Positions 39,337-62,053 of a DNA stretch of 64,000 bases are shown in pieces. A program made the position numbers and the translations under genes. The stretch's first letter is position 1; each line of letters opens with the position of its first letter. This stretch comes from a virus. The DNA lies in the IMG/VR virus record IMGVR_UViG_3300020469_000041, positions 1 through 64,000 of that record; one strand, written 5' to 3'. Under the pieces are notes generated by a model. The model was not told the DNA's origin and did no database searches. It was given only the letters and a program-made list of their open reading frames with translations.

Positions 39337-41160
39337 TTATAGCCCATATAACTTTGGTGAATATATGGTTATAAGCTCGTCTTTTCCTTTCACTTTGATA
39401 TTACCTATTTCATCGCATCTATATCCAGGAGGTAGTTGATTCTTAGTGAACGATGATATAATTGTTTTGTATTCTATATACTCATGCCGCGCTGCTGTAG
39501 CCTCAAGTCTAGCGGCAAGATTGACTGCATCTCCAATAACTGAATAGTCAAATCTGGATTCACTACCCATGTTACCAACAATACAATCACCGGTGTTAAC
39601 GCCAGTACCAACATTAATGTCAGGCAAACCCCTGGCAGAATATAACTTTTTAAGTTCATTTGTTTTAGCCTCTATTTCTATCGCTGATTTAACTGCCATT
39701 TCAGCATGATTTTCGCACGGTAATGGCGCGTTCCAAAATGCCATTATACAGTCACCCATATATTTGTCGATGGTTCCACCGTTTGCCAATATGATCTTTG
39801 TCATAGCATCAAGGAATTCATTGACTAATTCTACTAATCCTTCAGGATCATCATTATTTTTATAGTGTTCAGATATAGGAGTAAACCCACATATATCCAT
39901 AAATAAAAATGTCATTTCTTTTCTATCACCACCAAGCTTCAAAAGAGATGGATCATCTTGTAATTTTTGAACCATGTCGGGTGATAAGTATGTACCAAAT
40001 TGTTTTTTGATTTCTTCTTTTAATTTAAATGTTACATAAAATCTATTAAAAGAAGCATGTGCAAATACTAAAACTGAAGCCATAATAGGATATAAAACAT
40101 CTAATAGTATTAATGATTCCATCCAATACCAATAACCTATTGAAAACCAGCCAGCCATTAAACCTATAGATCCAATTGCAGAAAACCATATTGGAGTTTT
40201 ATAAACAATAAGAAGAATTAGTAAACATGAAAGTAAAATAACAAATAGTTCTAATTGATCAGCATACCACGGTCTCTGGATTTGTATACCATTGACAACA
40301 GTTGAAATTAAATGCGCTTGTATATCATGAGGTAACATTGCACCAGTCGGTGTGGCTACGGGATTTATCAGGCCTCCAGCGCTAAGGCCAAGGATAATTA
40401 TTTTATCGTTTGGTATTGGATCTCCAAATGATACTCGCTCATATTCGTTCCAGTAAGCTATTTGAACATTTGAATTTGGTGTTGTATACATAGGAGGAAG
40501 TGATCCCATTCGAACCCACTCGACTCCAGCTTCTTTTATTTTAATTGCTAAATTGGGTTGAAATTCAAATACTCTTAATACTTCTAATGCTACTGATGGA
40601 TGTAAATAATTATTAGCTAATATGACTAATGGTGATTCTCTTACAATACCATCAACTGAAGGAGCAGTTGTAACTGTTCCAACTCCCTGTGCATTTTCTT
40701 TTATAATTGGATTACGTATACCTTTGTACGAGTATAGCCAATCAGAAGAAACTCCTTTACCAAGTTTACCAAATCCAATTGATGGTTTATCGCCTTGTGG
40801 TTGATTGCTTAATAATGCTGATAAAATCACATCTCGATTTAACATTGCTTCAGATAGTGTAGCATCTTGATCAAATCGATCTGGTTCGGTAAATCCCATA
40901 TTAAAAACATATACGTTATTTTCTGGAGAATTGTTTAACCAATCAGCATAAATATTTCTACTAAATGGAAACTGACCATAAAAATTTAAAGCCTTTTCAT
41001 CGATATCGACAATGACTATATTATCAGATTTAATAGGTTCTTGGTAAGATTGAAGAGAATCAAAATAGTTTAAACGAAATTGTTCAACTAGTTTGGGATC
41101 TAAAACTCTAGTTGATAATAATAAAGCTATGGTAAGTAAAACTACTTTCCAATTGTGCAT
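39337..41160 (-). CDS. CHASE2-domain adenylate cyclase
   Basis: 607 residues. An N-terminal membrane helix is followed by an extracytoplasmic CHASE2 sensor (about 25-300: V-I-V-D-I-D-E-K-A-L near 50, D-G-I-V-R at 170), three membrane helices (about 302-370), a short linker and a class III cyclase domain (415-603). Catalytic residues seen: D422 and D470 (metals), K466 (adenine), N547 and R551 (transition state). S540 replaces the Asp/Thr of the second base-selecting site. The full set predicts cAMP synthesis from ATP in the host cytoplasm, controlled by an envelope signal. Last gene of a late operon, 1 nt after a small membrane protein. Confidence 0.92.
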   Translation of the reverse strand: MHNWKVVLLTIALLLSTRVLDPKLVEQFRLNYFDSLQSYQEPIKSDNIVIVDIDEKALNFYGQFPFSRNIYADWLNNSPENNVYVFNMGFTEPDRFDQDATLSEAMLNRDVILSALLSNQPQGDKPSIGFGKLGKGVSSDWLYSYKGIRNPIIKENAQGVGTVTTAPSVDGIVRESPLVILANNYLHPSVALEVLRVFEFQPNLAIKIKEAGVEWVRMGSLPPMYTTPNSNVQIAYWNEYERVSFGDPIPNDKIIILGLSAGGLINPVATPTGAMLPHDIQAHLISTVVNGIQIQRPWYADQLELFVILLSCLLILLIVYKTPIWFSAIGSIGLMAGWFSIGYWYWMESLILLDVLYPIMASVLVFAHASFNRFYVTFKLKEEIKKQFGTYLSPDMVQKLQDDPSLLKLGGDRKEMTFLFMDICGFTPISEHYKNNDDPEGLVELVNEFLDAMTKIILANGGTIDKYMGDCIMAFWNAPLPCENHAEMAVKSAIEIEAKTNELKKLYSARGLPDINVGTGVNTGDCIVGNMGSESRFDYSVIGDAVNLAARLEATAARHEYIEYKTIISSFTKNQLPPGYRCDEIGNIKVKGKDELITIYSPKLYGL

Positions 41161-41161
41161 A

Positions 41162-41329
41162 TCACCAATCCTTTATTATATTTACCATTATTAGTATACC
41201 ACACAATATATTTATTCCTACTATAATTGTTCGAACAACAGCTATAGCATTTTCACTATCAGGATTATACCCGTCTTCTTCATCAAAAGCGCCTAAAGAA
41301 TGCTTCCATATTTGCCAATACTTTTTCAT
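41162..41329 (-). CDS. Small membrane protein, 55 residues (paralogue at 48272)
   Basis: Reads M-K-K-Y-W-Q-I-W-K-H-S-L-G, an acidic stretch, then A-I-A-V-V-R-T-I and a membrane helix (about 33-50). It overlaps the curlin gene by ATGA and ends 1 nt before the cyclase ATG, so the three are translationally linked. It clearly resembles the 59-residue protein at 48272-48451 (W-x-I-W-x-x-S-L-G and A-V-x-R-T-I). Possibly a partner of the cyclase. Function unknown. Confidence 0.8.
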   Translation of the reverse strand: MKKYWQIWKHSLGAFDEEDGYNPDSENAIAVVRTIIVGINILCGILIMVNIIKDW

Positions 41330-42099
41330 TGTTGTGTGACTGCAACATTACATCCACCTATTGTCAAACAATTTTGCATAAGATTGTATGACTGAGTTGG
41401 ACCACCAGTTTGTATTAAATTTAAGTTTGTGGGTGATGTACCATCAAGAGTAACTGTTGCATTGTGTGCTCCATAATGTTGATGAATACTAACTTGATTT
41501 CCATCGTTATTAATCGTTAAATCTAAATCTTTATCACCAGAGCCAGCTTGAGTAAACCATACACTATTATTATCACTATTAATATCAATTTTTAATTCAT
41601 GATTGGGATCAGCTGTACCAGACTTTTGTCCTCCTTTTACCCAATTATTGTCTCCAGTAATATTAATTTCCATTTCATGCCCAGGATCTTCATGTGTATC
41701 TCTGCTACAAGTTGTACTTGTAGAATATATAAATTTACATCCTTGACCTACATCAACGCTGTTTGAATCACCGTCAACATCTATCCAAATTTTATTAATA
41801 TCAGTACTATTAGTATTATTCCATTGTTCTACTACAATTTGATTATAATCACCATCTATTCCTTGATTTTTTTTAAGTACTTGATTGTTATTTCCTTCTT
41901 GTAAAACTGCAGTATCTAGTTGATAACCAGATAATACTGTATCAATCAAATTATAATCGCCCTTTTGCTGATATTCTAATTTAAGATTATCACCAGTTTG
42001 AGTTAAATATATTTCATTATCAGCCCAAACTACTCTAAAACTACCAATTACAACAAAAGCTACTAAAGCTAAAATAGTTGTTAATAAAATTCTTTTCAT
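41326..42099 (-). CDS. Secreted curlin-repeat protein (CsgA/B-like)
   Basis: 257 residues. Signal peptide 1-26 (cut after V-V-W-A). The mature start D-N-E-I-Y-L-T-Q-T-G-D-N matches the other curlin-like protein at 43195. Repeats of the type G-D-x-N-x-V-x-x-x-Q continue: G-D-Y-N at 48 and 83, G-D-S-N at 110, G-D-N-N at 149, S-D-N-N at 175, N-D-G-N at 198. Each can form a strand-turn-strand of an amyloid beta solenoid, as in curli. C121/C131 and C244/C250 could form disulfides. Likely cargo of the CsgG/CsgF pore upstream. Overlaps both neighbours. Confidence 0.82.
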   Translation of the reverse strand: MKRILLTTILALVAFVVIGSFRVVWADNEIYLTQTGDNLKLEYQQKGDYNLIDTVLSGYQLDTAVLQEGNNNQVLKKNQGIDGDYNQIVVEQWNNTNSTDINKIWIDVDGDSNSVDVGQGCKFIYSTSTTCSRDTHEDPGHEMEINITGDNNWVKGGQKSGTADPNHELKIDINSDNNSVWFTQAGSGDKDLDLTINNDGNQVSIHQHYGAHNATVTLDGTSPTNLNLIQTGGPTQSYNLMQNCLTIGGCNVAVTQQ

Positions 42100-43265
42100 T
42101 ATTGCACCTGTGTTATATTAATAATAATACCCTGTCCGTCTCCTAATATTATTTCAGATTCTTTTTGATCTGTAATAGTTCTAAGTGTTGCGTTTTGAGA
42201 CAATAACATTGTTATGCTAATAACTCCATCAACATCTCTAAAAAATTTAACTGTTCCATCACCTTTATCTAATAAAGTATTATATTGACTATCAACGTCG
42301 AATCCTAATTTCGTTCCATCGAGAGCTACTTCACTAGATAAAGCACTTCTATCTAATGCAGTCTTTTTATCTAAGTCTAATACTATATCTAATATATCTT
42401 GTAAAAAGTCAACATCTAAATAATCTATATCTAATTCTGAAAACTCTAATTCGTCATAAGCCAAATAATCTGTTTCTAGTTCATTAAATTCTAAAAAGTC
42501 TACATCTAATATATTGTCACTTTCGTTTTCATTTAGTATACCTTCTTCAGCTTTAACTTCTTTTATTTCTTTTGGTTCTGATACAATAAAAATATTACTG
42601 ATCATATTATTATCTATACCAGAAAGAACTACTGGTCTACTTGGAGCTGTATCATATGAAGATATGACTGATGCTTGATATGCCTCTTCTAAAGTGACAG
42701 TACCACCAGCATTAGATATTATTATTTTGCCAGAAGCCTTTCCAGTTTCTTCATCGGGTAAAAGTATGATCAACGATTGACCTATTTCATCAATCGTCGT
42801 TGTAAAATCTGTACCCAGTATAGCTATTTCTGCCGTGGGTGTTGATAAATTAATATTAGATTTATTTATTCTTTTACCACGACCAGATGAAAATCTAGCC
42901 GTGCCTTGTACCATACGAATAGCCATCTCAGACTTAGATGGATCTGGATCGTAATAAGCCTTATCAATATAAATTTTTGTGTGTTCTATAATTGATAATT
43001 CTTCTTCATCTAAAAACTCAATTAATATTCTACCATTACCAGTAATGGCTGTATCTTTTAACTCAATTCCTGGAGTAGAAACTTTAGATACTATTATTTC
43101 TTCGCCTCCGGTGCGAATAAGAGAAGCTACTCCAGTCTGTTCAGTTATATCTCCTATAAATTCGGCTGCAGTAGCCGAACTTATAAGAAATAAATTAGTT
43201 AGCGTCAGACTGAATAATATTAATATCCGAACGATCTGTAATGAAGGTTGCATCAAGTATTGCAT
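42099..43265 (-). CDS. Periplasmic FecR-domain protein with acidic repeats
   Basis: 388 residues. Signal peptide 1-34 (A-T-A-A end). FecR domain about 36-160, with V-Q-G-T-A-R-F-S-S-G-R-G at 119-130 and the signature T-P-T-A-E-I-A-I-L-G-T-D-F at 142-154. Residues 254-290 are an acidic run of D-F-L/D-Y-L units. The C-terminus (G-D-G-Q-G-I-I-I-N-I) looks curlin-like. FecR modules next to CHASE2 cyclases occur in bacterial genomes. They are thought to sense or bind the envelope, not to act with FecI here, since no sigma or TonB gene is present. GGAG lies 9 nt before the ATG, inside the upstream curlin gene (71-nt overlap). Confidence 0.85.
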   Translation of the reverse strand: MQYLMQPSLQIVRILILFSLTLTNLFLISSATAAEFIGDITEQTGVASLIRTGGEEIIVSKVSTPGIELKDTAITGNGRILIEFLDEEELSIIEHTKIYIDKAYYDPDPSKSEMAIRMVQGTARFSSGRGKRINKSNINLSTPTAEIAILGTDFTTTIDEIGQSLIILLPDEETGKASGKIIISNAGGTVTLEEAYQASVISSYDTAPSRPVVLSGIDNNMISNIFIVSEPKEIKEVKAEEGILNENESDNILDVDFLEFNELETDYLAYDELEFSELDIDYLDVDFLQDILDIVLDLDKKTALDRSALSSEVALDGTKLGFDVDSQYNTLLDKGDGTVKFFRDVDGVISITMLLSQNATLRTITDQKESEIILGDGQGIIINITQVQ

Positions 43266-44052
43266 TATTGGTAACTCCAGTTGTGGAACCAGTATTTTGT
43301 CCTACAAAAATAAAGTTGTAGTCACCAGTTACACCAACTGTTTGATTATTATCTGCGCCATCTTCCATTGTAGTTTGAACCCAGTTATCTGATCCAATTA
43401 TATCCCAATTAAAAGTCGCATTAGTTGAATTAACAAATACATTTGTTGTATTATCGTCTCCTTGTATATCTAAATCCATGTCTAAAGAATCAGCTGATCC
43501 AGCAGTAGGATTCCAAGAACCCCAAAACGCAGTTTGGCCGCTATTAGTTCTTGACCACGTAGTTCCATTTACAGTCCAAAATTGTTCTGCATTGGATTGA
43601 TTCCAAAGAGGAGTAGATATATTATAAACATCATCGTCATTACCAGCTCTAAATACAACTTCGTTAGTATTACCAACTATTGCAGAATCAATAGTTATAG
43701 TATCAGCAGTAGTTGCGACGCCAATTTTTTGATTCCATTTGTTATAGTTACCAGTAATAAAGTTATTAATAGTAGATCCAGTAGTAGCAATTGTACCAAA
43801 CATTTTATTATAATCACCATCAAGTTTTAAGTCTAAATATGAATTAGAAACAGACATGGTCATATCTATTGACGTACCAGTAAAATCGTCTCCACCATAT
43901 TTGTTACCAGCACCAATTTGCTGAATAGTAAGCTCAACATTGTCACCAGTTTGAGCTATCCATATTTCATTATCATTTGCATCGCTAAATGCATTTGACG
44001 TTAATATAATTCCTAATATTGCGAACAATCCACTTTTATTCATGTTCATCAT
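43195..44052 (-). CDS. Secreted curlin-repeat protein (CsgA/B-like)
   Basis: 285 residues. Signal peptide about 1-23, then D-N-E-I-W-I-A-Q-T-G-D-N-V-E-L-T-I-Q-Q-I-G, a curlin-type strand pair shared with the protein at 41326. Further G-D-Y-N (79, 243), G-N-Y-N (101), G-N-T-N (127), G-D-D-N (198) and G-S-D-N (220) turns mark a beta solenoid. Its start overlaps csgG by 17 nt and its 3' end encodes the FecR signal peptide in another frame. An extracellular amyloid-like fibre or surface coat is predicted from family knowledge. Which of the two is the nucleator is not clear. Confidence 0.82.
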   Translation of the reverse strand: MMNMNKSGLFAILGIILTSNAFSDANDNEIWIAQTGDNVELTIQQIGAGNKYGGDDFTGTSIDMTMSVSNSYLDLKLDGDYNKMFGTIATTGSTINNFITGNYNKWNQKIGVATTADTITIDSAIVGNTNEVVFRAGNDDDVYNISTPLWNQSNAEQFWTVNGTTWSRTNSGQTAFWGSWNPTAGSADSLDMDLDIQGDDNTTNVFVNSTNATFNWDIIGSDNWVQTTMEDGADNNQTVGVTGDYNFIFVGQNTGSTTGVTNNAILDATFITDRSDINIIQSDAN

Positions 44053-44929
44053 TTTCTCCTGTTAACGGATGTTTTTCGTTTACCCCATCGTGCTGATGAG
44101 GATGCCTATGTCCATCCTTTATTACCCAAAGGCCTCTATCATGCCCTTGGTAAATTAACTCTAATACAGCTTCTTCAATTGCAGCTCGCGTAGCGTAAGT
44201 CACACTTTCGTTAAAGCCTATACCGTCTTCAATCTCGATAAGTTTAGTATCCATATCAACAAATCGAAATACATCATATCCACCACCTACAGACAAGATA
44301 GATTTTTTAGTCTGTACGTTCAACAAAATTTCACCCGTAAGAGTAGAGGTAGCTCTTAAACTTACGATTACCGAATCTCTTTTATACTGAGTTGAAGAAC
44401 CAATACCTAAGTATCTAGCTCCTCTACCTCCAGTCTCTAAGTTGGTATCATATCCTATAATACCACCTTCTAAAATTATCCCTGCAAAAAGCATAGGTTG
44501 AAGTTTTTTATCTTCAGCTGTTTTTTCAAACTCTTCTCTAGCTGATCTAATAATCTGTCTTTCTTTAACTAAATTATCAAGTCCAGCTCTTTCAACTACT
44601 CTAAACCATGTACCTTTACCGGCGGTTTTAAGTGCGTCAATAACAAATGCTTCAGCACCTTGTGTTACAGCAGTAGAAAAATCAGCTAAATTTTCTCTAC
44701 TTTTTCTTTGTCCAGTTAAATCTTGAAACTCATAAACAGCAACAATGGGCTTAAATTTTGCTGCAGGTAAATTTGCTAATCTTTTAGAAGCTGGTAATGT
44801 TACAACTACTGCCTCTTCTACACATTCTCCATATTGTTTCATAAATGTCATAGTGCAACTATCTGTCATACTCGGAAAGCTTGAGCATCCAGTTAAAAAT
44901 AACAATCCAATAACGAAAATATATTTCAT
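44036..44929 (-). CDS. csgG: Curli secretion lipoprotein CsgG
   Basis: 297 residues (E. coli CsgG 277). Lipobox F-L-T-G-C puts the acylated cysteine at C15. Core motifs include P-I-V-A-V-Y-E-F-x-D-L-T-G-Q, F-R-V-V-E-R-A-G-L-D-N-L-V-K-E-R-Q-I-I-R, I-L-E-G-G-I-I-G-Y-D-T-N and V-S-L-R-A-T-S-T-L-T-G-E-I-L: a full CsgG nonameric outer-membrane channel. The C-terminal ~30 residues are an added His-rich tail (D-G-H-R-H-P-H-Q-H-D-G). Directly follows CsgF with a one-base overlap. Confidence 0.95.
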   Translation of the reverse strand: MKYIFVIGLLFLTGCSSFPSMTDSCTMTFMKQYGECVEEAVVVTLPASKRLANLPAAKFKPIVAVYEFQDLTGQRKSRENLADFSTAVTQGAEAFVIDALKTAGKGTWFRVVERAGLDNLVKERQIIRSAREEFEKTAEDKKLQPMLFAGIILEGGIIGYDTNLETGGRGARYLGIGSSTQYKRDSVIVSLRATSTLTGEILLNVQTKKSILSVGGGYDVFRFVDMDTKLIEIEDGIGFNESVTYATRAAIEEAVLELIYQGHDRGLWVIKDGHRHPHQHDGVNEKHPLTGENDEHE

Positions 44930-45453
44930 TAGAAAGATCCAGCACCTATAGGAACATCAAGTGTTGTTGTTGTTCCATCCTCGCTCGTAACAGTAATCCT
45001 AATAATATCTGTTCCATCTTCTCCGCCTCCTACAATTGTTTCGTAAGTAATTGAATTGCCTTCTATATCGAAGGTTCCATATGTTGATGCAGTTTCATTA
45101 CCAAACATATTGTCTACCAATTGCTTAGCAATTTGAGCATATATTCTACTTTCTAAATTTCTTAAAAATTTAGCTTGTGTTGTATTATTTGCAGCTCTTT
45201 CAGCTTTATCAATTGCTGCTTGTATATCTTCTCTAATTTTATCTTTTCTAGATTTCTCTTGATTTTCAATAGTTAACCAATGAGCTGAAGTTCCAACTCC
45301 ACTAAATGACGGATTCTTAAATTTAAAAGTAATTCCATCTGCATTTGCGAGTGGACTTAACAATAGTGCTAAAATAAGTGCTGGCCAAAACAATATTGAA
45401 AACCAAACTAATGTTTTAATACTCCATTCATTTAATTTATCTAATATACTCAT
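44929..45453 (-). CDS. csgF: Curli pore partner CsgF
   Basis: 174 residues (E. coli 138). A hydrophobic segment ends A-N-A-D-G at about 40. The mature N-terminus G-I-T-F-K-F-K-N-P-S-F-S-G matches the CsgF segment that inserts in the CsgG channel. Then a helical linker and a C-terminal beta part with E-T-I-V-G-G, ending in G-T-T-T-T-L-D-V-P-I-G. In E. coli CsgF forms a second constriction in CsgG and anchors the nucleator at the surface. A longer N-terminal cytoplasmic stretch than usual precedes the signal helix. Overlaps the upstream membrane protein by 4 nt. Confidence 0.88.
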   Translation of the reverse strand: MSILDKLNEWSIKTLVWFSILFWPALILALLLSPLANADGITFKFKNPSFSGVGTSAHWLTIENQEKSRKDKIREDIQAAIDKAERAANNTTQAKFLRNLESRIYAQIAKQLVDNMFGNETASTYGTFDIEGNSITYETIVGGGEDGTDIIRITVTSEDGTTTTLDVPIGAGSF

Positions 45454-45719
45454 TTCTTTTTCTTTTTCCTCTCGTTTTCTTTATATTCTAATACTACATT
45501 TACTTTTTGTTGTAGTCTAATCATATCTTGATCAAGCATACGAGTTTGATCAATTACTCTTATAAGAGCAAAATGCATTTCTTCTAGTTTTGGCTCAATC
45601 TTTTCACCAATAAACCACCATACATAATATATAAAATAACCTAACCCAACCATCATTACAATAGGAAATCCATATTGTTGTATTGCGTCAACTAAGCTAA
45701 ATTCTACTACAACTTCCAT
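45450..45719 (-). CDS. Small single-TM coiled-coil protein (holin-like candidate)
   Basis: 89 residues. One membrane helix (about 17-37, V-M-M-V-G-L-G-Y-F-I-Y-Y-V-W-W-F), then a helical tail with D-M-I-R-L-Q-Q-K-V-N-V-V-L-E and a basic end (K-K-K-K-K). Similar in layout and in the D-M-I...V...L-E motif to the 98-residue protein at 45880. Between lysozyme and CsgF. A holin/BhlA-like role is possible but unproved. Confidence 0.75.
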   Translation of the reverse strand: MEVVVEFSLVDAIQQYGFPIVMMVGLGYFIYYVWWFIGEKIEPKLEEMHFALIRVIDQTRMLDQDMIRLQQKVNVVLEYKENERKKKKK

Positions 45720-45722
45720 TAT

Positions 45723-45896
45723 CTATTTCCAATTATAATATGGATTATCAAACCATCCCATATAGTAAGATAATACAAATATTCCACAAAAAATAATGAC
45801 TATGGCTAACCCTTTCCAAGTGTCTGAATCACTCCAATCTTGTCCCGCTTGTATTTTTTTCCACGTTTTTCCATTTATTCTAGTCTCTTCTGACAT
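45723..45896 (-). CDS. Small membrane protein, 57 residues
   Basis: Reads M-S-E-E-T-R-I-N-G-K-T-W-K-K-I-Q-A-G-Q-D-W, then a membrane helix (about 29-46) and a short aromatic tail N-P-Y-Y-N-W-K. Overlaps the upstream gene by 17 nt and ends 3 nt before the next ATG. It fills the space of the late operon exactly. Topology suggests cytoplasmic N-terminus. Function unknown. Confidence 0.75.
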   Translation of the reverse strand: MSEETRINGKTWKKIQAGQDWSDSDTWKGLAIVIIFCGIFVLSYYMGWFDNPYYNWK

Positions 45897-46176
45897 CCAA
45901 TTTCCCGTCCTCTACAAAATTTTCTGCACGGGCTATTCTTTCAATGTCTGGAGTTAACTCTAAAGCACTACTCACCAATAAATCTATTTTAATCATGTCG
46001 TTATTCATCGCTCTAGCGCGATTCTCCAGTGATTTACAAAACATGGTAAGTGTTCCTATTTGTTCTACTATACCATTTAATATTTGTTTTATCACTAAAA
46101 ATATAAAAAAGCCCATGACAATACTTCCGGCGATAGGTGCACCCACATCGCCTATTAAATTAAATACTTCACCCAT
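45880..46176 (-). CDS. Small single-TM coiled-coil protein (holin-like candidate)
   Basis: 98 residues. Gly-rich start, membrane helix about 14-35 (A-P-I-A-G-S-I-V-M-G-F-F-I-F-L-V-I), then N-N-D-M-I-K-I-D-L-L-V-S-S-A-L-E. Probable paralogue of the 89-residue protein two genes downstream. Both lie next to lysozyme in the late operon. Confidence 0.75.
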   Translation of the reverse strand: MGEVFNLIGDVGAPIAGSIVMGFFIFLVIKQILNGIVEQIGTLTMFCKSLENRARAMNNDMIKIDLLVSSALELTPDIERIARAENFVEDGKLDVRRD

Positions 46177-46435: not shown

Positions 46436-46900
46436 TTAGATATTTTCTAAGCGTGACATAAGTCTTTCCGCTCTGTTTGTTACTTGCTTATGCCATCTAG
46501 AATCTCTTCCTTCAACAGCTGCTTTTTTCCAGTCACCACTTTGCAAAGCCGCATTGTGATTTTTGAATTTACTTAATCTGGTTCTACCCATATTAAACAT
46601 CATATTAGCAATTACTTGCTTTACTTCTTGAGGATATCCATCCCATGCTTCATGTAAGATCTTACAGTCTCTGATGACTGATTCAACGTCTCGTTCGAAA
46701 CATTCAATTGTTCGTTCCTCTGACACTGCGGTTCCCACATCCATTCCAAACTCTGGATCAGATTTAAGGACCAGGTGGCCAATTCCAAATGTTGCGTACC
46801 CCAGATGATCTTTATAAATTTCATTAACCTGACCCTCGTCGATTATTAATTGTTCTCTTAATTGATCTATGTCAATATCAGTTTCTTTATTCCAAAACAT
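46436..46900 (-). CDS. e: Endolysin, T4 lysozyme family (GH24)
   Basis: 154 residues. Catalytic triad of T4 lysozyme is intact: E22, D31, T37 (T4 E11, D20, T26 with identical spacing) in D-E-G...Y-K-D...Y-A-T-F-G-I-G-H. The C-terminal half, with W-K-K-A-A-V-E...S-R-W-H-K-Q-V-T-N-R-A-E-R, also aligns. It cuts N-acetylmuramyl bonds in peptidoglycan at lysis. No signal peptide, so a holin is required. The neighbouring small membrane proteins are candidates. Confidence 0.95.
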   Translation of the reverse strand: MFWNKETDIDIDQLREQLIIDEGQVNEIYKDHLGYATFGIGHLVLKSDPEFGMDVGTAVSEERTIECFERDVESVIRDCKILHEAWDGYPQEVKQVIANMMFNMGRTRLSKFKNHNAALQSGDWKKAAVEGRDSRWHKQVTNRAERLMSRLENI

Positions 46901-47528: not shown

Positions 47529-47791
47529 TATTTAATAATCTCCGTAATTAGATTTTCGAATTGTTCTATTTTTTCTACTCTATTAGGCCAAAGAATATAT
47601 TCTTTCTCTGGATTTTTCTTTAAATTTGATAATAAAGGAAGAATTGAATTATATAGCTTATTTAGCTTTTCTTCTGTGACGGCAAGTTCTGCAGTTTTAC
47701 TATCTGCAGTTTTTATAGTGGACTGTACCGCTTCTAGCTCGTTTTCATCAACGGCAGTAAATCCAAAATCGAAATTTAGTAAATCACTCAT
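47528..47791 (-). CDS. Conserved small T4-like phage protein, 87 residues
   Basis: Helical, with the motif I-L-P-L-L-S-N-L-K-K-N-P-E-K-E-Y-I-L-W-P-N-R near residues 50-71, which I recognise from marine T4-like genomes as a conserved protein of unknown role. First gene of the late operon, with AAGGAG in a predicted 12-nt leader. Confidence 0.78.
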   Translation of the reverse strand: MSDLLNFDFGFTAVDENELEAVQSTIKTADSKTAELAVTEEKLNKLYNSILPLLSNLKKNPEKEYILWPNRVEKIEQFENLITEIIK

Positions 47792-47808: not shown

Positions 47809-47816
47809 TATTTATA
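47809..47816 (-). promoter_or_regulatory. T4-type late promoter of the lysozyme-curli-cyclase operon
   Basis: Exact TATAAATA, predicted start at 47803, 12-nt leader carrying AAGGAG before the ATG at 47791. No gap over 20 nt separates genes from here to 39337, and no other convincing promoter lies between. Confidence 0.75.
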
Positions 47817-47839: not shown

Positions 47840-48172
47840 TTATGAGGTGGTTTGATGATATTCTGGCATTTGATAACTAAGAGTTAGTTCTTCTCCCGCT
47901 TTAATATCTTTAGATGTAATTAAATAATATTCTGGATCTTTTAACTCAGAATTATGAAGAATATTTTTACAAGATGGATTTTCACTATGATTTATAAATG
48001 CTCCAAGTGCAGTTCTTATCCATTCACCATGATAAAAAATTCTCATGAGTCCTAGATTAGTACCTTCTGATATATCATCAGTAGCAAAAGCTCCGAGACC
48101 GTCAATAGTACTTTCCTTTATTGTAACACAACTGGGTAATGGTCTCCATGTATTAGAAAAATCAATCGTCAT
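47840..48172 (-). CDS. SET-domain protein (putative lysine methyltransferase)
   Basis: 110 residues, a near-minimal SET domain. G-L-G-A-F-A at 25-30 (SAM-binding start), A-F-I-N-H-S-E-N-P-S-C at 58-68 and A-G-E-E-L-T-L-S-Y at 92-100 with the terminal Tyr100. Such stand-alone SET proteins methylate lysines in proteins. Bacterial and viral targets are mostly unknown. No post-SET zinc cluster. Last gene of an early-type unit starting at 49210. Overlaps the upstream small gene by 11 nt. Confidence 0.85.
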   Translation of the reverse strand: MTIDFSNTWRPLPSCVTIKESTIDGLGAFATDDISEGTNLGLMRIFYHGEWIRTALGAFINHSENPSCKNILHNSELKDPEYYLITSKDIKAGEELTLSYQMPEYHQTTS

Positions 48173-49276: not shown

Positions 49277-50416
49277 TTATTTCAATATCTCTGATATTTC
49301 ATATCCTAAATTTAAAAACCAATTCATATCCCTGCCTCGTGTAACTTCCGCTGCAGTACCTAAACGAATACCACTTGTTTCAGCAAAACTTCGGGGATCA
49401 TTCGGTACTCCGTTTTTGTTTACAGTAATTCCATGCTTTTCTAATAGATCGGCAGCTTCTCTTCCGCTGATTTCTTTATCACTTAAATCTACAAGAACAA
49501 TATGACTGTCTGTTCCTCCAGTAGCAATACTATAGCCACCCATTTTAAGACCATCAGCAAGTAATTTAGCACTGTTTTTTACTGCTGTAATATAGTCACG
49601 AAACTCTTGAGTATTTGCTTCTATAAAGCATTGTGCTTTTGCAGCAATAATATTCATAAGAGGGCCGCCTTGTGTTCCTGGAAATATTGCACCATTTATT
49701 TTCTTTGTTAGCTCAGGATTATTCCACAGTATCATACCACCACGAGGACCACGAAGTGTCTTATGTGTTGTACTCGTTACCGCATGAGCATAGGGCAAAG
49801 GACTAGGGTACTGTCCTCCAGCAATCAGTCCACTATAGTGTGCCATATCGCACACAAGATATGCGTTTACTTCTTTTGCGATATCTCTGAATGTAGACCA
49901 CTCAATTTCTCTTGGATACGCACTTGCTCCTGCAACAATAACTTCAGGATTATATCTTTTGGCAAGACTTCGTACTTGTTCATAATCAATCCAACCTCTG
50001 TCGTTTACTCCGTAAGTATATGCGTTGTAATACTTTCCGCTATGCGTTGGAGGTGCTCCATGACTAAGGTGTCCACCACTTGCAAGATCCATGCCAAGAA
50101 TCGTATCTCCTGGTTGCATCAGTGCTTGGTAGACTGCTGAGTTTGCATTGACCCCGCTGTGAGGTTGTACATTTGCAAACTTGCATCCATATAGCTTTTT
50201 CACTTCTTCTATCGCAAGAGTTTCTATTTCGTCCATGTATTCACAGCCGTTATAGTATCTCTTGCCTGGATAACCTTCTGCATATTTATTTGTAAAGACA
50301 CTACCACAAAGCTCGCGAACAGCGTCACTCGCAAAGTTTTCACTTGCTATTAATTCAATAGTAGAAGCTTGTCTATTGTATTCTTGGTTTAAAATTGAAC
50401 GTATCTTATTGTCCAT
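49277..50416 (-). CDS. glyA: Serine hydroxymethyltransferase
   Basis: 379 residues (bacterial GlyA about 417). N-terminal Q-A-S-T-I-E-L-I-A-S-E-N, the cofactor strand G-M-D-L-A-S-G-G-H-L-S-H-G, and the PLP lysine K219 in T-S-T-T-H-K-T-L-R-G-P-R-G-G are present. It converts serine and THF to glycine and methylene-THF, the one-carbon donor for thymidylate synthesis. The enzyme looks complete but lacks some C-terminal length. Preceded by small conserved phage genes and located 9 nt after its neighbour in the PhoH unit. Confidence 0.95.
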   Translation of the reverse strand: MDNKIRSILNQEYNRQASTIELIASENFASDAVRELCGSVFTNKYAEGYPGKRYYNGCEYMDEIETLAIEEVKKLYGCKFANVQPHSGVNANSAVYQALMQPGDTILGMDLASGGHLSHGAPPTHSGKYYNAYTYGVNDRGWIDYEQVRSLAKRYNPEVIVAGASAYPREIEWSTFRDIAKEVNAYLVCDMAHYSGLIAGGQYPSPLPYAHAVTSTTHKTLRGPRGGMILWNNPELTKKINGAIFPGTQGGPLMNIIAAKAQCFIEANTQEFRDYITAVKNSAKLLADGLKMGGYSIATGGTDSHIVLVDLSDKEISGREAADLLEKHGITVNKNGVPNDPRSFAETSGIRLGTAAEVTRGRDMNWFLNLGYEISEILK

Positions 50417-55536: not shown

Positions 55537-56010
55537 TTACAATCCTTCGATATAATTTGATAAAACTTTAATATCGTTTTGAGATAAAATAGAAGCTTGA
55601 GACCACATAATTTGAGATCTTTTTCCTCTTTGTTCTCTATTTTGATATTGTTTTAATGCTGTTTCTATATATAAGGATGTATTACCCGCCAATGCTGGAA
55701 ATATTCCCATACCCTCGCCTTTCATTCCATGACATCCAGCGCATCCATTCCATGATGCTGGTGTAGGATCTATTTCAACTACTGGAGCCTCAATAACACC
55801 TGCTGCAATTAATCTTTCTTCTTCTAACTTTGCGAGTCGAGCAACCTCGCGTCTTTCTAATAATTGTTCATAGCACTCATTTATACATGCACTTTGTGGA
55901 TTATGTCCTCTTTGTGGTGCATGACTAAACGCAACTGAGATGATAAAAGCTGCAGCACAGGATATTAAAAAAGGAAATAATATATGTGGATTCACGTCTT
56001 TATGACTCAT
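55537..56010 (-). CDS. Membrane-anchored class I cytochrome c
   Basis: 157 residues. Membrane helix 10-29, periplasmic linker with C42/C46 and a charged helix (50-70), then the heme motif C90-A-G-C93-H94, G-E-G-M-G-x-F-P-A-L-A-G-N, and M135 as the likely sixth ligand. Size and pattern fit a c5/c553-type electron carrier facing the periplasm. Heme attachment would rely on host Ccm machinery. Overlaps nrdB by 4 nt and glutaredoxin follows directly, so it is a bona fide operon member. A role in respiration during infection is inferred. Confidence 0.9.
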   Translation of the reverse strand: MSHKDVNPHILFPFLISCAAAFIISVAFSHAPQRGHNPQSACINECYEQLLERREVARLAKLEEERLIAAGVIEAPVVEIDPTPASWNGCAGCHGMKGEGMGIFPALAGNTSLYIETALKQYQNREQRGKRSQIMWSQASILSQNDIKVLSNYIEGL

Positions 56011-57080
56011 AGACTTAATCCTGCTAATGTATTATTATCCATGTCTTGTTTTACTCCTCCAATAACATATGAACTAATTTCAGTTTCTTGTGGTGCAACT
56101 TGTACATTACCTCCACCTATCCATTTTTCAGTCCAAGGTAATGGATTAGCTTTTGGTGTTACGTATGGACATTGTAATCCAACCGCTCTCATTCTTTTAC
56201 AGCCTATCCATTCTATATAATCACATAGAATTTTTTCATTAAGGCCAATCATAGAACCATTTGCAAATAGATATCTGGCCCAAGATTTTTCTTGCTCAAT
56301 TACGTCTAAATATAATTGAACTGATTCTTGTTCTGTTTTCTTAGCTATTTTTTCGTAGTCTTTATCTTCTTTTTTCAAAAGCTTAAGCATTGTGGTAGTA
56401 CTAGCCAAATGTAAATTTTCATCTCGAGCAATGAATTTAATAATTTTAGCATTACCTTCCATTTTCTTTAATTCAGCAAAAGCCCAACTACATGCAAATG
56501 ATACATAGAACCTTATACCTTCTAAAGCATTTGCCGATTGCATAGCCATCCAAATTGCTGTCTTATGATCTATTTTATTTACAGGATTATGATTATAATC
56601 CATCAAATCATCGTAATATTTAGATATACTTGATCCACACTCAACAATTTCTTTATTATCTAATATTCCATCAAATACATGTGAAGGATCTGCATACACA
56701 TTTCTTATAATATGTGTATAACTTCTGCTGTGAATAGTTTCTGAAAATGACCATGTTTCAATCCAGTTTTCAACTTCTGGTAATGATACAATTGGTAAAA
56801 ATGCTAGATTTGGAGCTCGACCTTGAACACTGTCGAGTACTATTTGTCTTTTAAGATTACTTGTAAAAATGTGTTGTTCATTTTCAGTTAATCCATTAAA
56901 GTCTTTTTTATCTTTAGAAACATCTACTTCTTCTGGTCTCCAAAAGAATCCTAGTTGTTTATCTGTAATTTTGTCTAACTGAGGATATTTAACTTCATCA
57001 TATCTTTGAATATCTACCGCCTCATCCAAAAACATATTTCTAGTCATATGAGACTTTTTATTCTTTTTCAATACTGACAT
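56007..57080 (-). CDS. nrdB: Ribonucleotide reductase class I small subunit
   Basis: 357 residues from the ATG at 57080 (a GTG one codon earlier is possible), with AAGGA upstream. Counting from that GTG, the di-iron ligands D84, E115, H118 fall at E. coli numbers, with the tyrosyl radical in S-R-S-Y122-T-H. E-G-I-R-F and D-E-N-L-H-L supply the remaining ligands. Forms the radical cofactor needed by NrdA. Follows iscU in the operon. Confidence 0.96.
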   Translation of the reverse strand: MSVLKKNKKSHMTRNMFLDEAVDIQRYDEVKYPQLDKITDKQLGFFWRPEEVDVSKDKKDFNGLTENEQHIFTSNLKRQIVLDSVQGRAPNLAFLPIVSLPEVENWIETWSFSETIHSRSYTHIIRNVYADPSHVFDGILDNKEIVECGSSISKYYDDLMDYNHNPVNKIDHKTAIWMAMQSANALEGIRFYVSFACSWAFAELKKMEGNAKIIKFIARDENLHLASTTTMLKLLKKEDKDYEKIAKKTEQESVQLYLDVIEQEKSWARYLFANGSMIGLNEKILCDYIEWIGCKRMRAVGLQCPYVTPKANPLPWTEKWIGGGNVQVAPQETEISSYVIGGVKQDMDNNTLAGLSL

Positions 57081-57104
57081 CACGTTTTTCCTTGTTTTTA
57101 ATAT

Positions 57105-57485
57105 TTAAATTTGTTTTTCTCTTACTGCTTTCACTGCACTTTTTATAGCATCCTCCGCCAAAACAGAACAATGTATTTTTACTGGAGGTAATGCTAATTC
57201 TTCAGCAAGTTCAGTGTTCTTTATTTTTTCAGCATCATTTATGTGTTTACCTTTAACCCATTCAGTCAATAAAGAACTAGAAGCTATTGCTGAACCGCAT
57301 CCATAGGTTTTAAATTTAGCATCAACAATAACATCATCATCGTTTATTCTAATTTGTAACCTCATTACATCGCCACAGGCTGGAGCTCCAACCATTCCTG
57401 TACCTACGTTTTTATCTGAATCATCCATGACTCCAACATTTCTTGGATTTTCATAGTGATCAATAACTTTCTCGCTGTAAGGCAT
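57105..57485 (-). CDS. iscU: Fe-S cluster scaffold IscU
   Basis: 126 residues, full-length. Cluster-binding cysteines C37 (A-P-A-C-G-D), C63 (Y-G-C-G-S-A) and C106 (K-I-H-C-S), D39, and the chaperone-recognition motif L-P-P-V-K at 99-103 are all present. IscU assembles 2Fe-2S clusters from host cysteine desulfurase and passes them on. Encoded between nrdB and iscA. No iscS, hscA or ferredoxin gene is in the window, so host factors must cooperate. Confidence 0.94.
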   Translation of the reverse strand: MPYSEKVIDHYENPRNVGVMDDSDKNVGTGMVGAPACGDVMRLQIRINDDDVIVDAKFKTYGCGSAIASSSLLTEWVKGKHINDAEKIKNTELAEELALPPVKIHCSVLAEDAIKSAVKAVREKQI

Positions 57486-57494
57486 AGTTTACTC

Positions 57495-57815
57495 CTATGC
57501 AACGTAAAAACTTTCTCCACAACCACACTTACTTGTTTCATTTGGATTCACAAACTCAAATCCTTCTTGAAACTGTTCTACCTTATACTGTAACTCTGAA
57601 CCAAATAAAAAAATTGAACTTTTATTATCTATGTATACAGTTACAGGAAGGTCTAAAAGAACGTGGTCTCCTTCTTCCTCTTTATATGCCCATTCCATTA
57701 CATAAGCATGTCCATTACATCCAGCGCTTTGTACTTTAATACGAATACCTATAGAATTTGCTGGTAATATTAGTTGAGCAAGAGCTTTTTCTGCTGACTC
57801 GTGTATTTCTATCAT
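57495..57815 (-). CDS. iscA: A-type Fe-S carrier (IscA/ErpA family)
   Basis: 106 residues. Three conserved cysteines: C33 in A-G-C-N-G and C97/C99 in K-C-G-C-G-E-S-F. It receives clusters or iron from IscU and delivers them to targets. Starts 3 nt after nrdA. Complete, so likely active. Confidence 0.93.
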   Translation of the reverse strand: MIEIHESAEKALAQLILPANSIGIRIKVQSAGCNGHAYVMEWAYKEEEGDHVLLDLPVTVYIDNKSSIFLFGSELQYKVEQFQEGFEFVNPNETSKCGCGESFYVA

Positions 57816-57818
57816 TAC

Positions 57819-60131
57819 TTATATCTTACAACTATCGCAATCTTCTTCTTCATAAGCTTCGCTTTCACCGTCATAAGAATGATGAGTTTCTCCATCGGTC
57901 ATTTCGCCAGCTCCGTCGAACGTATTGAAATAATAAAGCTGTTTTAAACCATATCTATAAGCAGTTACTAGATCTGTAATCATTTGTGACATGGGTATCT
58001 TATTATCTTCAAAAAACTCTGGATTATAAGATGTATTTACACTAATGCCTTGATCTATGTACTTTTGAAGTATAGCACAGATCTTAAGATAACCATCGGG
58101 AGATTTTTGATCCCACAATAAGTCATACTTATTTTTTAAGTTGCGATAACCCGGAACTACTTGAGCCATCACTCCGTCTTTACTTTGTTTGTAACTAACT
58201 AATGCGCGTGGAGGTTCTATACCATTCGTACTGTTAGATATTTGTGCACTTGTTTCAGCAGGCATTAATGCCATCAGAGTAGAATTGCGAGTACCTGTTT
58301 CTAAGAGCTTATGTCTTAGCTCGTTCCACGGTAGTCTTTCTTTATGCTCTATTAAATTATTTATTGCACCTTTATATGTATCAATTGGTAACACTCCACA
58401 TGCATATTTTGTGTGATTTTTTAAATTAATTTCACCCTTTTCAACAGCTAATTGCTGAGAAGCCTTAATTAAATAATAAGACCACGCTTCAGCATATTCA
58501 TCTACAGTTTCAAACGCGCCTTCATCATATTTAAGGCCTCGTTTTGCTAAGAAATATGCTAAATTAATAATTCCAATACCCAAGGGTCTTCTATTCATAG
58601 TACCCCTTTCTGCAGCTTTTACTGGATAATCTTGATAATCTAATAATTCATCTAGTGCTCTTACTGAAAGATCACAGTATTTTTCGAATTCACTAGGATC
58701 ATTTATTAAACCCCAATTGATTGCTGAAAGGGTACACAGTGATATTTCACCTTCTTCTGGATCAGCACCCATTGGGCTTGTAGGTAGATCTATTTCGCAA
58801 CAAAGATTACTCATACGAATTGGAGCAACCTTAGCATCAAATGCTCCGTGATCATTTGCATGATCTACATTCATAATATATATTCTTCCAGTATCTTTCC
58901 TTTGTTGAATTACTGTAGAAAATACTTCAGATGCAGATAATGACTTTTTACGAATTGAATAAGCTCTTTCATATTTTTCATATAACTCTTTAAATTTATC
59001 TTGATCACTAAAGAAAGATTCATATAGGCCTGGTACGTCATTAGGATCAAAGAAGGTTATATTTCCACCTGTTAATAATCTTTCGTACATTAGTTTATTG
59101 ACTTGAAAAGCATAATCCATATGACGAACTCTATTTTCTTCTGTACCTTTATTATTTTTAAGTACAACTAAATCTTCAAACTCATAGTGCCACATTGGTA
59201 AATATACAGTAGCTGCTCCACCACGAACACCGCCTTGAGAACATGATTTTACTGCTGATTGGAAATATTTTAAAAATGGAATTAGTCCAGTATGAACTAC
59301 TGAACCATCACCAACTTTAGCTCCTTCAGCTCTAATAGAGCCAGCTCCAATACCAATACCTGCTTTTTTAGATATGTATTTTACAATGGAAGTTGCAGTT
59401 GCGTTGATAGAATCAAGAGAATCGCCAGATTCGATAAGAACACAACTCGAAAACTGACGGGTCGGTGTACGTACACCAGCCATAATAGGCGTAGGTAACG
59501 ATATATAGAATTGAGAAATTGCATCGTAGTAATCCTTTACATATTTCATACGAGTTGTTTTTGGATAATCTGAAAACAACGTTGCTGAAATCATCATATA
59601 CAAAACTTGTGGAGTTTCGAAATGTTGTTTTGTTCTTCTATCTTGAACTAGATATTTACCTCTAAATTGTTCCATTCCTGCGTAAGTAAAAGTATCATCT
59701 CGATCGTGTTTAATATATTTACCTAGCTCGTCTATTTCATCACGAGAATAAGATTTCATTATAGATCCATCATAAACTTCTCTATCAACGTTATCGATAA
59801 TAACTTGGGCTAATGAATGCGGTTCATAATCACCGTATACCTCTTTGCGTAATTTGTAAGAAACAAGTCTTGCAGCAACATATTGATAATTTGGAGTATA
59901 ATCTGAAATTAATTCAGCAGCACTTTTTATAAGAAGTTCGTGAATATCGTAAGCTGGAATTTTATCGTATAATTGTATATTAGCCTTTAGTTCTATTTCA
60001 GAAATAGATACTCCAGAAACATTTTCTGTCGCCCATTCTAATACTTTGTGTACTTTTTCTAAGTCAAAGTCTTGTGCAGTACCATCACGCTTTGTTACGT
60101 GCATTGTCATAAAGTTTTGTCCGTCAGTCAT
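57819..60131 (-). CDS. nrdA: Ribonucleotide reductase class I large subunit
   Basis: 770 residues. N-terminal ATP-cone (about 12-95), active-site cysteines C230 and C466, radical-site N442/C444/E446 in S-N-L-C-C-E-I, the Y-Y pair near the C-terminus for radical transfer, and the shuttle cysteines C-D-S-C-K-I at the very end. Makes dNDPs for phage DNA. First gene of the operon, behind an early promoter at 60158. Confidence 0.97.
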   Translation of the reverse strand: MTDGQNFMTMHVTKRDGTAQDFDLEKVHKVLEWATENVSGVSISEIELKANIQLYDKIPAYDIHELLIKSAAELISDYTPNYQYVAARLVSYKLRKEVYGDYEPHSLAQVIIDNVDREVYDGSIMKSYSRDEIDELGKYIKHDRDDTFTYAGMEQFRGKYLVQDRRTKQHFETPQVLYMMISATLFSDYPKTTRMKYVKDYYDAISQFYISLPTPIMAGVRTPTRQFSSCVLIESGDSLDSINATATSIVKYISKKAGIGIGAGSIRAEGAKVGDGSVVHTGLIPFLKYFQSAVKSCSQGGVRGGAATVYLPMWHYEFEDLVVLKNNKGTEENRVRHMDYAFQVNKLMYERLLTGGNITFFDPNDVPGLYESFFSDQDKFKELYEKYERAYSIRKKSLSASEVFSTVIQQRKDTGRIYIMNVDHANDHGAFDAKVAPIRMSNLCCEIDLPTSPMGADPEEGEISLCTLSAINWGLINDPSEFEKYCDLSVRALDELLDYQDYPVKAAERGTMNRRPLGIGIINLAYFLAKRGLKYDEGAFETVDEYAEAWSYYLIKASQQLAVEKGEINLKNHTKYACGVLPIDTYKGAINNLIEHKERLPWNELRHKLLETGTRNSTLMALMPAETSAQISNSTNGIEPPRALVSYKQSKDGVMAQVVPGYRNLKNKYDLLWDQKSPDGYLKICAILQKYIDQGISVNTSYNPEFFEDNKIPMSQMITDLVTAYRYGLKQLYYFNTFDGAGEMTDGETHHSYDGESEAYEEEDCDSCKI

Positions 60132-60446: not shown

Positions 60447-61220
60447 TTATACCTCTTCTATCGGAAGCTTTCTTTTAAGCTTCGATAATGCTTTTACATA
60501 ATTTGGCATACCATGATCTACAACACCATCAAAGAATTTCCATCTTTTCCATGAGTTCCATATACCATAGAACATATCTGCCCATGTTGGACCAACTGCT
60601 TTATTTCCAAATCTATCAAAATAAATCATTTCTCCATGGTGTCTAAATCCAAGAAATGCTGGAGGAATTCTACACACAATATCGTTATTATTCATAAATC
60701 TATAATGATCTGAATTTATGTTTTTAACAAAGTGTTTTCCACCAACTCTTGGTGAACCAAATGTAAAAAGCTCTTGAGGTTGATATCTTGTAGTAGCAAT
60801 TGTTGCCATTGCAGCACCTAAACTATGGCCTGTAAAATATACATCTTTTCGTACTTTAAGTTGATCATTGTGATCTAATTCTTTTACAATGTCCATCCAT
60901 AAGTCATCTACTTCTTCTTGAAAACCACCATGTACTTTACCACCGGCTTTAGCTGTATTTTTGATTATTTTAAGATCAGCCATAACATCATTTAATTTAG
61001 AAGGTTCAGTTCCTCTAAAAGCAAACCACATATCATTTCTATCTTTTGCTATGAGTACTTCTGCACCATCTCTACTTATAATTTTACCAGACGCAAATCC
61101 TAGTTTTTTACAAGCAGTCTCTGCTGGTTTTGGATTCATATAAGCAATCGCAGATAACTTAGCTGCTATTTCTGCTCTTTCCCATAAGGTTAATTGTTCT
61201 TTCATTCTAGTTGTCGCCAT
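60447..61220 (-). CDS. Class 3 lipase (alpha/beta hydrolase)
   Basis: 257 residues from the ATG at 61220 (GGAGAA just upstream, inside the o-spanin 3' end). Nucleophile elbow G-H-S-L-G with S133, F-T-F-G-S-P-R-V-G, N-N-D-I-V with D180, and H-H-G-E-M with H195 form the lipase_3 catalytic set. W-F-A-F-R-G-T-E is the oxyanion region. No signal peptide is evident, so it may act on the inner membrane from inside, or be released at lysis. Neighbour of the spanins, hence a lysis-stage membrane role is plausible. Confidence 0.88.
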   Translation of the reverse strand: MATTRMKEQLTLWERAEIAAKLSAIAYMNPKPAETACKKLGFASGKIISRDGAEVLIAKDRNDMWFAFRGTEPSKLNDVMADLKIIKNTAKAGGKVHGGFQEEVDDLWMDIVKELDHNDQLKVRKDVYFTGHSLGAAMATIATTRYQPQELFTFGSPRVGGKHFVKNINSDHYRFMNNNDIVCRIPPAFLGFRHHGEMIYFDRFGNKAVGPTWADMFYGIWNSWKRWKFFDGVVDHGMPNYVKALSKLKRKLPIEEV

Positions 61221-61707
61221 TTTTTTTCTCCAATTTAATTTCAACTGCTCCAGCATCTTCATCATTTATTGTCACATTCCTATAGTAAACTATCACCTCA
61301 CCGAGTTGATTAATATATCTTTTAATTTCTTGCGTATTATAAGACATTAGCTCATAATCAGCAACACTCATGGCAACAAAAACAATATCACCTCCGTGTT
61401 TCTTTTTAATATCATCGATAAACTTATCGAGATATGTATACCCTTCAGGGTACAAATCTTCTCTACCTAATTTACAGTTTGATTTTTTAGTTTCAGGATC
61501 CTTAAGACAATTCTCAATTATTTTTGTATCTGAAACTACATACCATTTAGGTTCTTTTAAATCTATTGCTCTTGGCATCACTGGCTGAACAATATCGATT
61601 TTAATTGGTTTTGTTATTATTTCAACTTCTCTGGGAGGTTGCTGTAATAGACTACAACCACTAATCGTTAAGAGAGCTAATACGCTTGCTATCTGCTTCA
61701 ATCGCAT
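61207..61707 (-). CDS. Outer-membrane spanin lipoprotein (o-spanin, Rz1-type)
   Basis: 166 residues from the ATG at 61707 (AAGGAGG upstream, within the i-spanin gene). Lipobox T-I-S-G-C is followed by a proline-containing stretch (Q-Q-P-P-R). The later part has V-A-M-S-V-A-D-Y-E-L-M near 120. It starts inside the preceding gene, a nested Rz/Rz1-like arrangement. It would bridge outer membrane to the i-spanin and fuse membranes at lysis. Longer than lambda Rz1, so the C-terminal domain may have another role. Confidence 0.72.
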   Translation of the reverse strand: MRLKQIASVLALLTISGCSLLQQPPREVEIITKPIKIDIVQPVMPRAIDLKEPKWYVVSDTKIIENCLKDPETKKSNCKLGREDLYPEGYTYLDKFIDDIKKKHGGDIVFVAMSVADYELMSYNTQEIKRYINQLGEVIVYYRNVTINDEDAGAVEIKLEKKNGDN

Positions 61708-62053
61708 CAAAGACCTCCTTCGTTTGAGCATTTGCTCGTGTTTCTATCATACCAGGTTTTGCACTAGCAAGTTTAGCAATATTATGTCTTCTAAATATAT
61801 CTAGATAATCTGACATTTGTGTTTCGTATTGTTGATTTTGTACTTGTAAGCCAGAAAGTGCTTGAGTGGTTTTTTGAAGATTGCCTTGAATGGCCTCAAT
61901 AGTAGCTTTTTGTTCTTGATCTCTAAGATCTTGAGCAGCAATAACTTTTATTTGCTCTTCTAGCTTGTTCTTCATAGGAACAATTGAGAATTGATAATAT
62001 AAAAATCCTGATAAACCCATAGCAACAATAATTCCAATCAATAATTTAGACAT
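61661..62053 (-). CDS. Inner-membrane spanin (i-spanin, Rz-type)
   Basis: 130 residues. N-terminal signal-anchor helix (about 4-22) and a long periplasmic coiled coil (27-85, Q-E-Q-K-A-T-I-E-A-I-Q-G-N-L-Q-K). Overlaps the lipoprotein gene by 47 nt. Topology and nesting support an i-spanin. No sequence match to lambda Rz is claimed. Confidence 0.72.
   Translation of the reverse strand: MSKLLIGIIVAMGLSGFLYYQFSIVPMKNKLEEQIKVIAAQDLRDQEQKATIEAIQGNLQKTTQALSGLQVQNQQYETQMSDYLDIFRRHNIAKLASAKPGMIETRANAQTKEVFDAIEADSKRISSLND

Follow-up and report, generated by a model that had tools for sequence, protein, structure and literature searches.

We analyzed a 64,000-nucleotide window (positions 1 to 64,000) of the 67.4-kb IMG/VR virus record IMGVR_UViG_3300020469_000041. 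On its minus strand, the window carries a nearly gapless operon, running from position 46176 down to 39337, in which genes for curli-type export stand beside those of a FecR protein and a CHASE2 adenylate cyclase. The baseplate wedge protein is closest to those of the Pelagibacter phages Mosig and HTVC008M and the Methylophilales phage Melnitz (∼40% identity), which identifies the source, by sequence, as a T4-like marine phage. Most genes of the operon overlap. Their order is a pair of small membrane protein genes, hk2 and hk1, with a 57-amino-acid (aa) open reading frame (ORF) between them, followed by csgF, csgG, the gene of curlin-like protein 1, the FecR gene, the gene of curlin-like protein 2, a gene for a 55-aa protein, and the CHASE2 cyclase gene (Table 1). 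A first-pass annotation had listed seven genes, from csgF to the cyclase, and their strand, order, and coordinates were all correct; the three ORFs that precede csgF extend the module beyond that span. The CsgG, CsgF, FecR, CHASE2, and cyclase domains each scored above the curated Pfam cutoffs. The conserved operon encodes an exporter made of CsgG and CsgF, a pair of curlin-like proteins, a FecR protein that is exported, and a CHASE2 adenylate cyclase that appears to be active.

Table 1. Features of the curli-type operon and the sequence preceding its gene run (aa, amino acids; ORF, open reading frame; TM, transmembrane)
Feature	Position	Strand	Evidence or remark
Small membrane protein hk2, 98 aa, phrog_18771	45880..46176	-	Single TM helix at the N terminus, followed by a helical tail
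57-aa membrane ORF, overlapping the end of the hk2 gene	45723..45896	-	No PHROG match
Small membrane protein hk1, 89 aa, phrog_18771, paralogue of hk2	45450..45719	-	No kinase domain
CsgF	44929..45453	-	PF10614, 55 bits (cutoff, 25.8)
CsgG outer-membrane pore lipoprotein, lipobox LTGC	44036..44929	-	PF03783, 167 bits (cutoff, 20.8)
Curlin-like protein 1, 285 aa, predicted beta-solenoid	43195..44052	-	Weak curlin profile matches, turn motifs, model
Exported FecR protein	42099..43265	-	PF04773, 34.6 bits (cutoff, 24); model and fold matches
Curlin-like protein 2, 257 aa	41326..42099	-	Curlin structures by family profile
55-aa single-TM protein, phrog_1679; in only some relatives	41162..41329	-	
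CHASE2 sensor and class III adenylate cyclase	39337..41160	-	PF05226, 107 bits; PF00211, 70 bits
T4-type late-promoter-like TATAAATA	47809..47816	-	Consensus match only

The family profile of CsgG matched CsgG structures at an E value of 1e-67, and the N-terminal F-x-N-P-x-F segment of CsgF is kept. In Escherichia coli, the N-terminal segment of CsgF inserts into, and plugs, the CsgG barrel. The alignment of the CsgF profile to the CsgF chains of 6l7a and 6lqh, although weak (E = 0.02), covers this plug stretch. The retained segment therefore appears to speak against, without disproving, the proposal that pairing with CsgG has been lost in phage CsgF (PMC9004378).

The two proteins that the first-pass annotation had called curlin-repeat proteins are not recognized by Pfam, but their family profiles do match curlin structures, well for curlin-like protein 2 and weakly for curlin-like protein 1. 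Only two solved structures, both of them curlins, were matched by the profile of curlin-like protein 2 (8c50, E = 2e-7; 8enq, E = 2e-4). The same two were again the sole solved matches for curlin-like protein 1, but at E values of 0.009 and 0.044. Curlin-like protein 1 contains seven G-D/N-x-N turns where 1.4 are expected, a count as high as which was seen in 0 of 2,000 shuffles; spacings of 22, 26, and 48 residues dominate the repeats of its family, and its predicted model is a beta-solenoid (mean predicted local distance difference test score [pLDDT], 76). Both curlin-like genes keep signal sequences and turn motifs.

In the predicted model of the FecR protein, a signal/TM helix (residues 8 to 26) is followed by the FecR domain (approximately residues 34 to 231), an acidic disordered linker, and C-terminal beta strands (residues 321 to 385). 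Model residues 68 to 231 match the PupR cell-surface signaling domain with a Z score of 15.1, and the domain fold is common to the phage protein and the FecR/PupR cell-surface signaling regulators. The phage protein differs from these regulators in possessing a signal sequence instead of the N-terminal cytoplasmic anti-sigma domain, helix 8 to 26 being all that lies ahead of the FecR domain, and no sigma factor gene was seen nearby. Because the protein starts with a signal helix and has no cytoplasmic domain, the published picture of FecR as an iron-citrate regulator does not fit the predicted architecture. Residues 34 to 133 of the model also match 5ix9, a cell-surface anchoring domain by which a giant Marinomonas adhesin is retained (Z = 7.0; root mean square deviation, 1.9; 73 of 76 residues), a match too weak to exclude a common arrangement. 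At the modeled C terminus, a row of short strands spaced ∼10 residues apart, with Q as the last residue, resembles curlin repeats. That this part is itself a curlin was left as an idea, as no curlin was found there by profile and none was listed by the fold search.

The CHASE2 cyclase retains the residues D422, K466, D470, S540, N547, and R551, each conserved in 39 to 40 of 40 aligned cyclases. They include the two metal aspartates, the substrate-position lysine and serine, and the catalytic asparagine and arginine, a pattern associated with ATP-using class IIIb enzymes. By hand count, 14 of the sampled alphaproteobacterial genomes have a FecR domain no more than 3.1 kb from a CHASE2 cyclase, and the pair thus occurs widely without curli. 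Many FecR-domain matches in Alphaproteobacteria (L108 to L131) fall within very long open frames of 900 to 6,900 aa, which suggests that FecR domains are carried there on giant exported proteins.

A CsgG pattern search of IMG/VR yielded at least 599 matches, of which 596 of those listed were relatives. Gene presence was counted in two sets of viral loci, those found through CsgG and those found through the small protein; some contigs belong to both sets and the loci are the closest relatives, so the counts are not independent. The IMG/VR loci with enough contig carried curlin-like protein 1 in 130/130 cases, FecR in 109/109, curlin-like protein 2 in 87/89, and the cyclase in 34/34. All 155 loci with room upstream of csgF had both members of the small pair, and csgG was present in 64 of the 65 loci with room that had been found via the small protein alone. 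Of 50,697 phage records, only six contain the small proteins, and all six carry the curli operon. As judged from these distributions, the small membrane pair is an obligatory part of the module, and the conserved unit consists of eight genes.

Each protein of the small pair consists of a single membrane helix at the N terminus and a helical, charged tail, and members are mostly shorter than 105 aa. One or two genes designated histidine kinase were reported to lie ahead of the curli module in every case, and the same study groups its own histidine kinase among short, diverged, or paralogous sequences left out of the trees (PMC9599517). From their position and number, hk1 and hk2 seem to be the genes so labeled. 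Proteins of 89 and 98 aa are too small for a kinase catalytic domain and, on their predicted lengths, cannot be histidine kinases; neither HisKA nor HATPase was matched by Pfam in 15 relatives of hk1, and hk2 of the window had no Pfam match of any kind. The eight-gene unit therefore includes two small membrane proteins that have seemingly been mistaken for a histidine kinase.

The genes csgF and csgG were first reported in pelagimyophages in 2020 (PMC7029224). Two years later, CsgF, CsgG, CsgA/B, FecR, a second CsgA/B, and adenylate cyclase were described as one operon of conserved order in pelagimyophages and pelagipodophages, expressed in marine metatranscriptomes, with viral Curli proteins recorded at every one of the 65 GOV2.0 stations (PMC9599517, published in 2022). 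The first-pass annotation, which took the complete sensory module to be undescribed, was therefore wrong on this point; the whole set had already been presented as one system in SAR11 phages. HTVC008M and Melnitz show an identical gene order in their GenBank entries. The Melnitz record is complete (csgF, csgG, curlin repeat, FecR, curlin repeat, cyclase) and names two curlin-repeat proteins, in contrast to the text of PMC9004378, where Melnitz is said to lack csgA/csgB and a complete pathway. The window operon shares its genes and their order with the type VIII secretion system (T8SS)/curli module of pelagiphages, both myo- and podophages. It differs from that module in that the genes before csgF have no kinase domain, in the additional 55- and 57-aa membrane ORFs, and in its sequence, which is new (CsgG, 52% to HTVC008M by tblastn). 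With the curli system of E. coli (csgBAC/csgDEFG), the phage module has the CsgG pore, CsgF, and curlin repeats in common, whereas CsgC, CsgD, and CsgE are missing and FecR and the cyclase are added. Marine phages commonly carry genes for curli-type export, but we found no publication that demonstrates their function, a question that the present results sharpen.

A chromosomal csgF-csgG-curlin-curlin-FecR-CHASE2 cyclase operon was identified in two Caulobacteraceae metagenome-assembled genomes (MAGs; L091 and L092). Its CsgG matches the phage protein at 51 to 53%, and both small membrane proteins of the phage module are missing from it. Judging by eye from translations, the flanks in L092 encode an acyl-CoA dehydrogenase, a TetR-type regulator, an amidohydrolase, and cytochromes. 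These loci provide a concrete cellular counterpart of the phage module. No phage-type FecR or cyclase was found in 17 other alphaproteobacterial csgF-csgG regions, and homologs of the small proteins were limited to partial matches in 385 alphaproteobacterial genomes (best E, 9e-4). Because the cellular version does without the small pair, the role of the pair can be sought in needs that only a phage has. The Caulobacteraceae sequences fall inside the phage rows in the CsgG tree, where a single phage clade is not rejected (p value of the approximately unbiased test [p-AU], 0.077); with this value, and with a cyclase tree that leaves the placement open, the Caulobacteraceae operon was not established as a clear donor. 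Where other genome-contig matches include the small membrane pair, most are likely to be phage contigs that were placed in MAGs by binning. Phage-like curli contigs (L084 to L090, L094 to L099, and L104) sit in MAGs labeled Synechococcus, Sphingobacteriales, Flavobacteriaceae, Planctomycetaceae, Rhodobacteraceae, and Pelagibacter, a distribution that probably reflects binning contamination.

We consider it probable that the phage carries a pelagiphage-type operon for type VIII (curli) secretion, to which a FecR/CHASE2-cyclase pair with a sensory role is joined, and that the operon exports an amyloid coat late in infection. Signal sequences would bring the curlin-like proteins and FecR into the periplasm, and CsgG would form the outer-membrane pore, with the N terminus of CsgF seated in it. 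The curlins would exit via this pore and stack as a beta-solenoid amyloid on the infected cell. FecR would remain periplasmic, as an anchor or reporter, and be read by the periplasmic CHASE2 domain, while the cytoplasmic cyclase would produce cyclic AMP (cAMP). The two small inner-membrane proteins would be a phage-specific addition. The benefit to the phage would most likely be an altered surface of the infected cell, leading to aggregation or to the exclusion of rival phages.

Several observations weigh against this interpretation. The module contains no CsgE. Curlin-like protein 1 is only weakly tied to curlins by sequence, and its predicted solenoid resembles many beta-helix proteins; the fold search returned these only, an unspecific result, with no curli structure listed. 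Cytograms and transmission electron microscopy showed no clumping of Melnitz-infected cells (PMC9004378). Cyclic nucleotide monophosphate (cNMP)-binding domains (PF00027) are present in just 9/147 Pelagibacteraceae genomes, a count from incomplete MAGs of a family whose role as host is unproven, and none was found in HTVC008M, in Melnitz, or in the present record, which is a fragment.

The absence of a CsgE gate gene also favors a different view, in which the main role of CsgG is that of an outer-membrane channel through which small molecules are taken up or leak during infection, and the curlin-like proteins are minor or vestigial; uptake has been proposed in two studies (PMC7029224 and PMC9599517). 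We regard this view as unlikely because a mere channel would not keep the curlin genes and csgF, whereas csgF and both curlin-like genes are near-invariant, the latter two with the signal sequences and turns described above.

The export reading places the operon late in infection, as did the first-pass annotation. The promoter-like sequence TATAAATA sits 18 nucleotides before position 47791, the start of the first gene of a codirectional run that ends in the cyclase gene, and late expression of the operon is therefore plausible. Its TATAAAT form is also found within 60 nucleotides upstream of the genes at 27684, 23763, 18824, and 4182. Across the window, the motif occurs 15 times versus 13.3 expected, which is no enrichment. 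Scans for sigma-70 promoters and terminators gave nothing clearly above chance.

In another view, the module would time or aid lysis, as has been proposed for Melnitz (PMC9004378), with CsgG in a pinholin- or secretin-like part and the small membrane proteins as holin-like components. Their single TM helix and some similarity to YvrJ fit this view, although the holin-like matches are weak (best YvrJ E, 0.006; phrog_4898 E, 0.14). A lysozyme-family gene (46436 to 46900) lies just upstream of the module in the window and is likewise present in 29/128 loci; with this frequency, an endolysin was rejected as a fixed partner of the module. The best PHROG match of its product is a baseplate tail lysozyme, and the protein may therefore be structural rather than an endolysin. 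The phage moreover has its own overlapping Rz-like spanin pair (61207 to 62053), consisting of a phrog_812 lipoprotein and a phrog_739 inner-membrane partner, and CsgG belongs to the outer rather than the inner membrane. Controlled lysis, one of the uses suggested in the first-pass annotation, is weakened by the phage's own spanin pair and lysozyme-family gene, the latter no constant neighbor of the module, and we think it improbable that lysis is the function of the module. A class 3 lipase gene (60447 to 61265) adjoins the spanin pair.

The intact active site of the cyclase, its presence in every locus in which it could be counted, and the wide occurrence of the FecR/CHASE2 pair in Alphaproteobacteria would fit a further alternative, in which the cyclase is the main point of the operon: the phage would sense the envelope (e.g., superinfection or stress) and set host cAMP, the fiber serving as an antenna. 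This is doubtful, given a host family nearly without PF00027 proteins and related phages without any. Class III cyclase domains were found in 3/147 Pelagibacteraceae genomes; one of these matches (G582) has the coordinates of the phage-like locus L104, and another genome (G581) is that of the phage-like locus L096. Since cNMP-binding domains are rare in Pelagibacteraceae and were not found in the related phages, cAMP appears to lack an obvious receptor in the likely host, with the limit that the search covered cNMP-binding domains and not other cAMP receptors. The coupling of an envelope signal to cAMP, as first suggested for this operon, accordingly has no known receptor to act on.

As a variant of curli export, the operon could be an amyloid exporter that reports on itself. 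The N-terminal part of FecR, with its 5ix9-like fold, would hold the protein at the CsgG pore, the periodic C-terminal strands would cap or nucleate the curlin fiber, the CHASE2 cyclase would read ongoing export, and the small pair would tie the system to the phage cycle. We put this forward as a speculative and rather unlikely elaboration. The system itself is known, and the window holds a further copy that apparently goes beyond the published accounts in four points: the obligatory small membrane pair, the cellular operon without the pair, the FecR architecture, and the missing cAMP receptor. These points are useful corrections and do not amount to a new kind of system.

Elsewhere in the window, a serine hydroxymethyltransferase gene (49277 to 50416; PF00464, 478 bits) and ribonucleotide reductase genes (56007 to 60131) were identified. 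The phage also encodes a small protein of the cytochrome c type, with a membrane anchor at its N terminus (55537 to 56010; PF00034). A 110-aa protein (47840 to 48172; phrog_28741) resembles, by eye, a minimal SET-domain methyltransferase.

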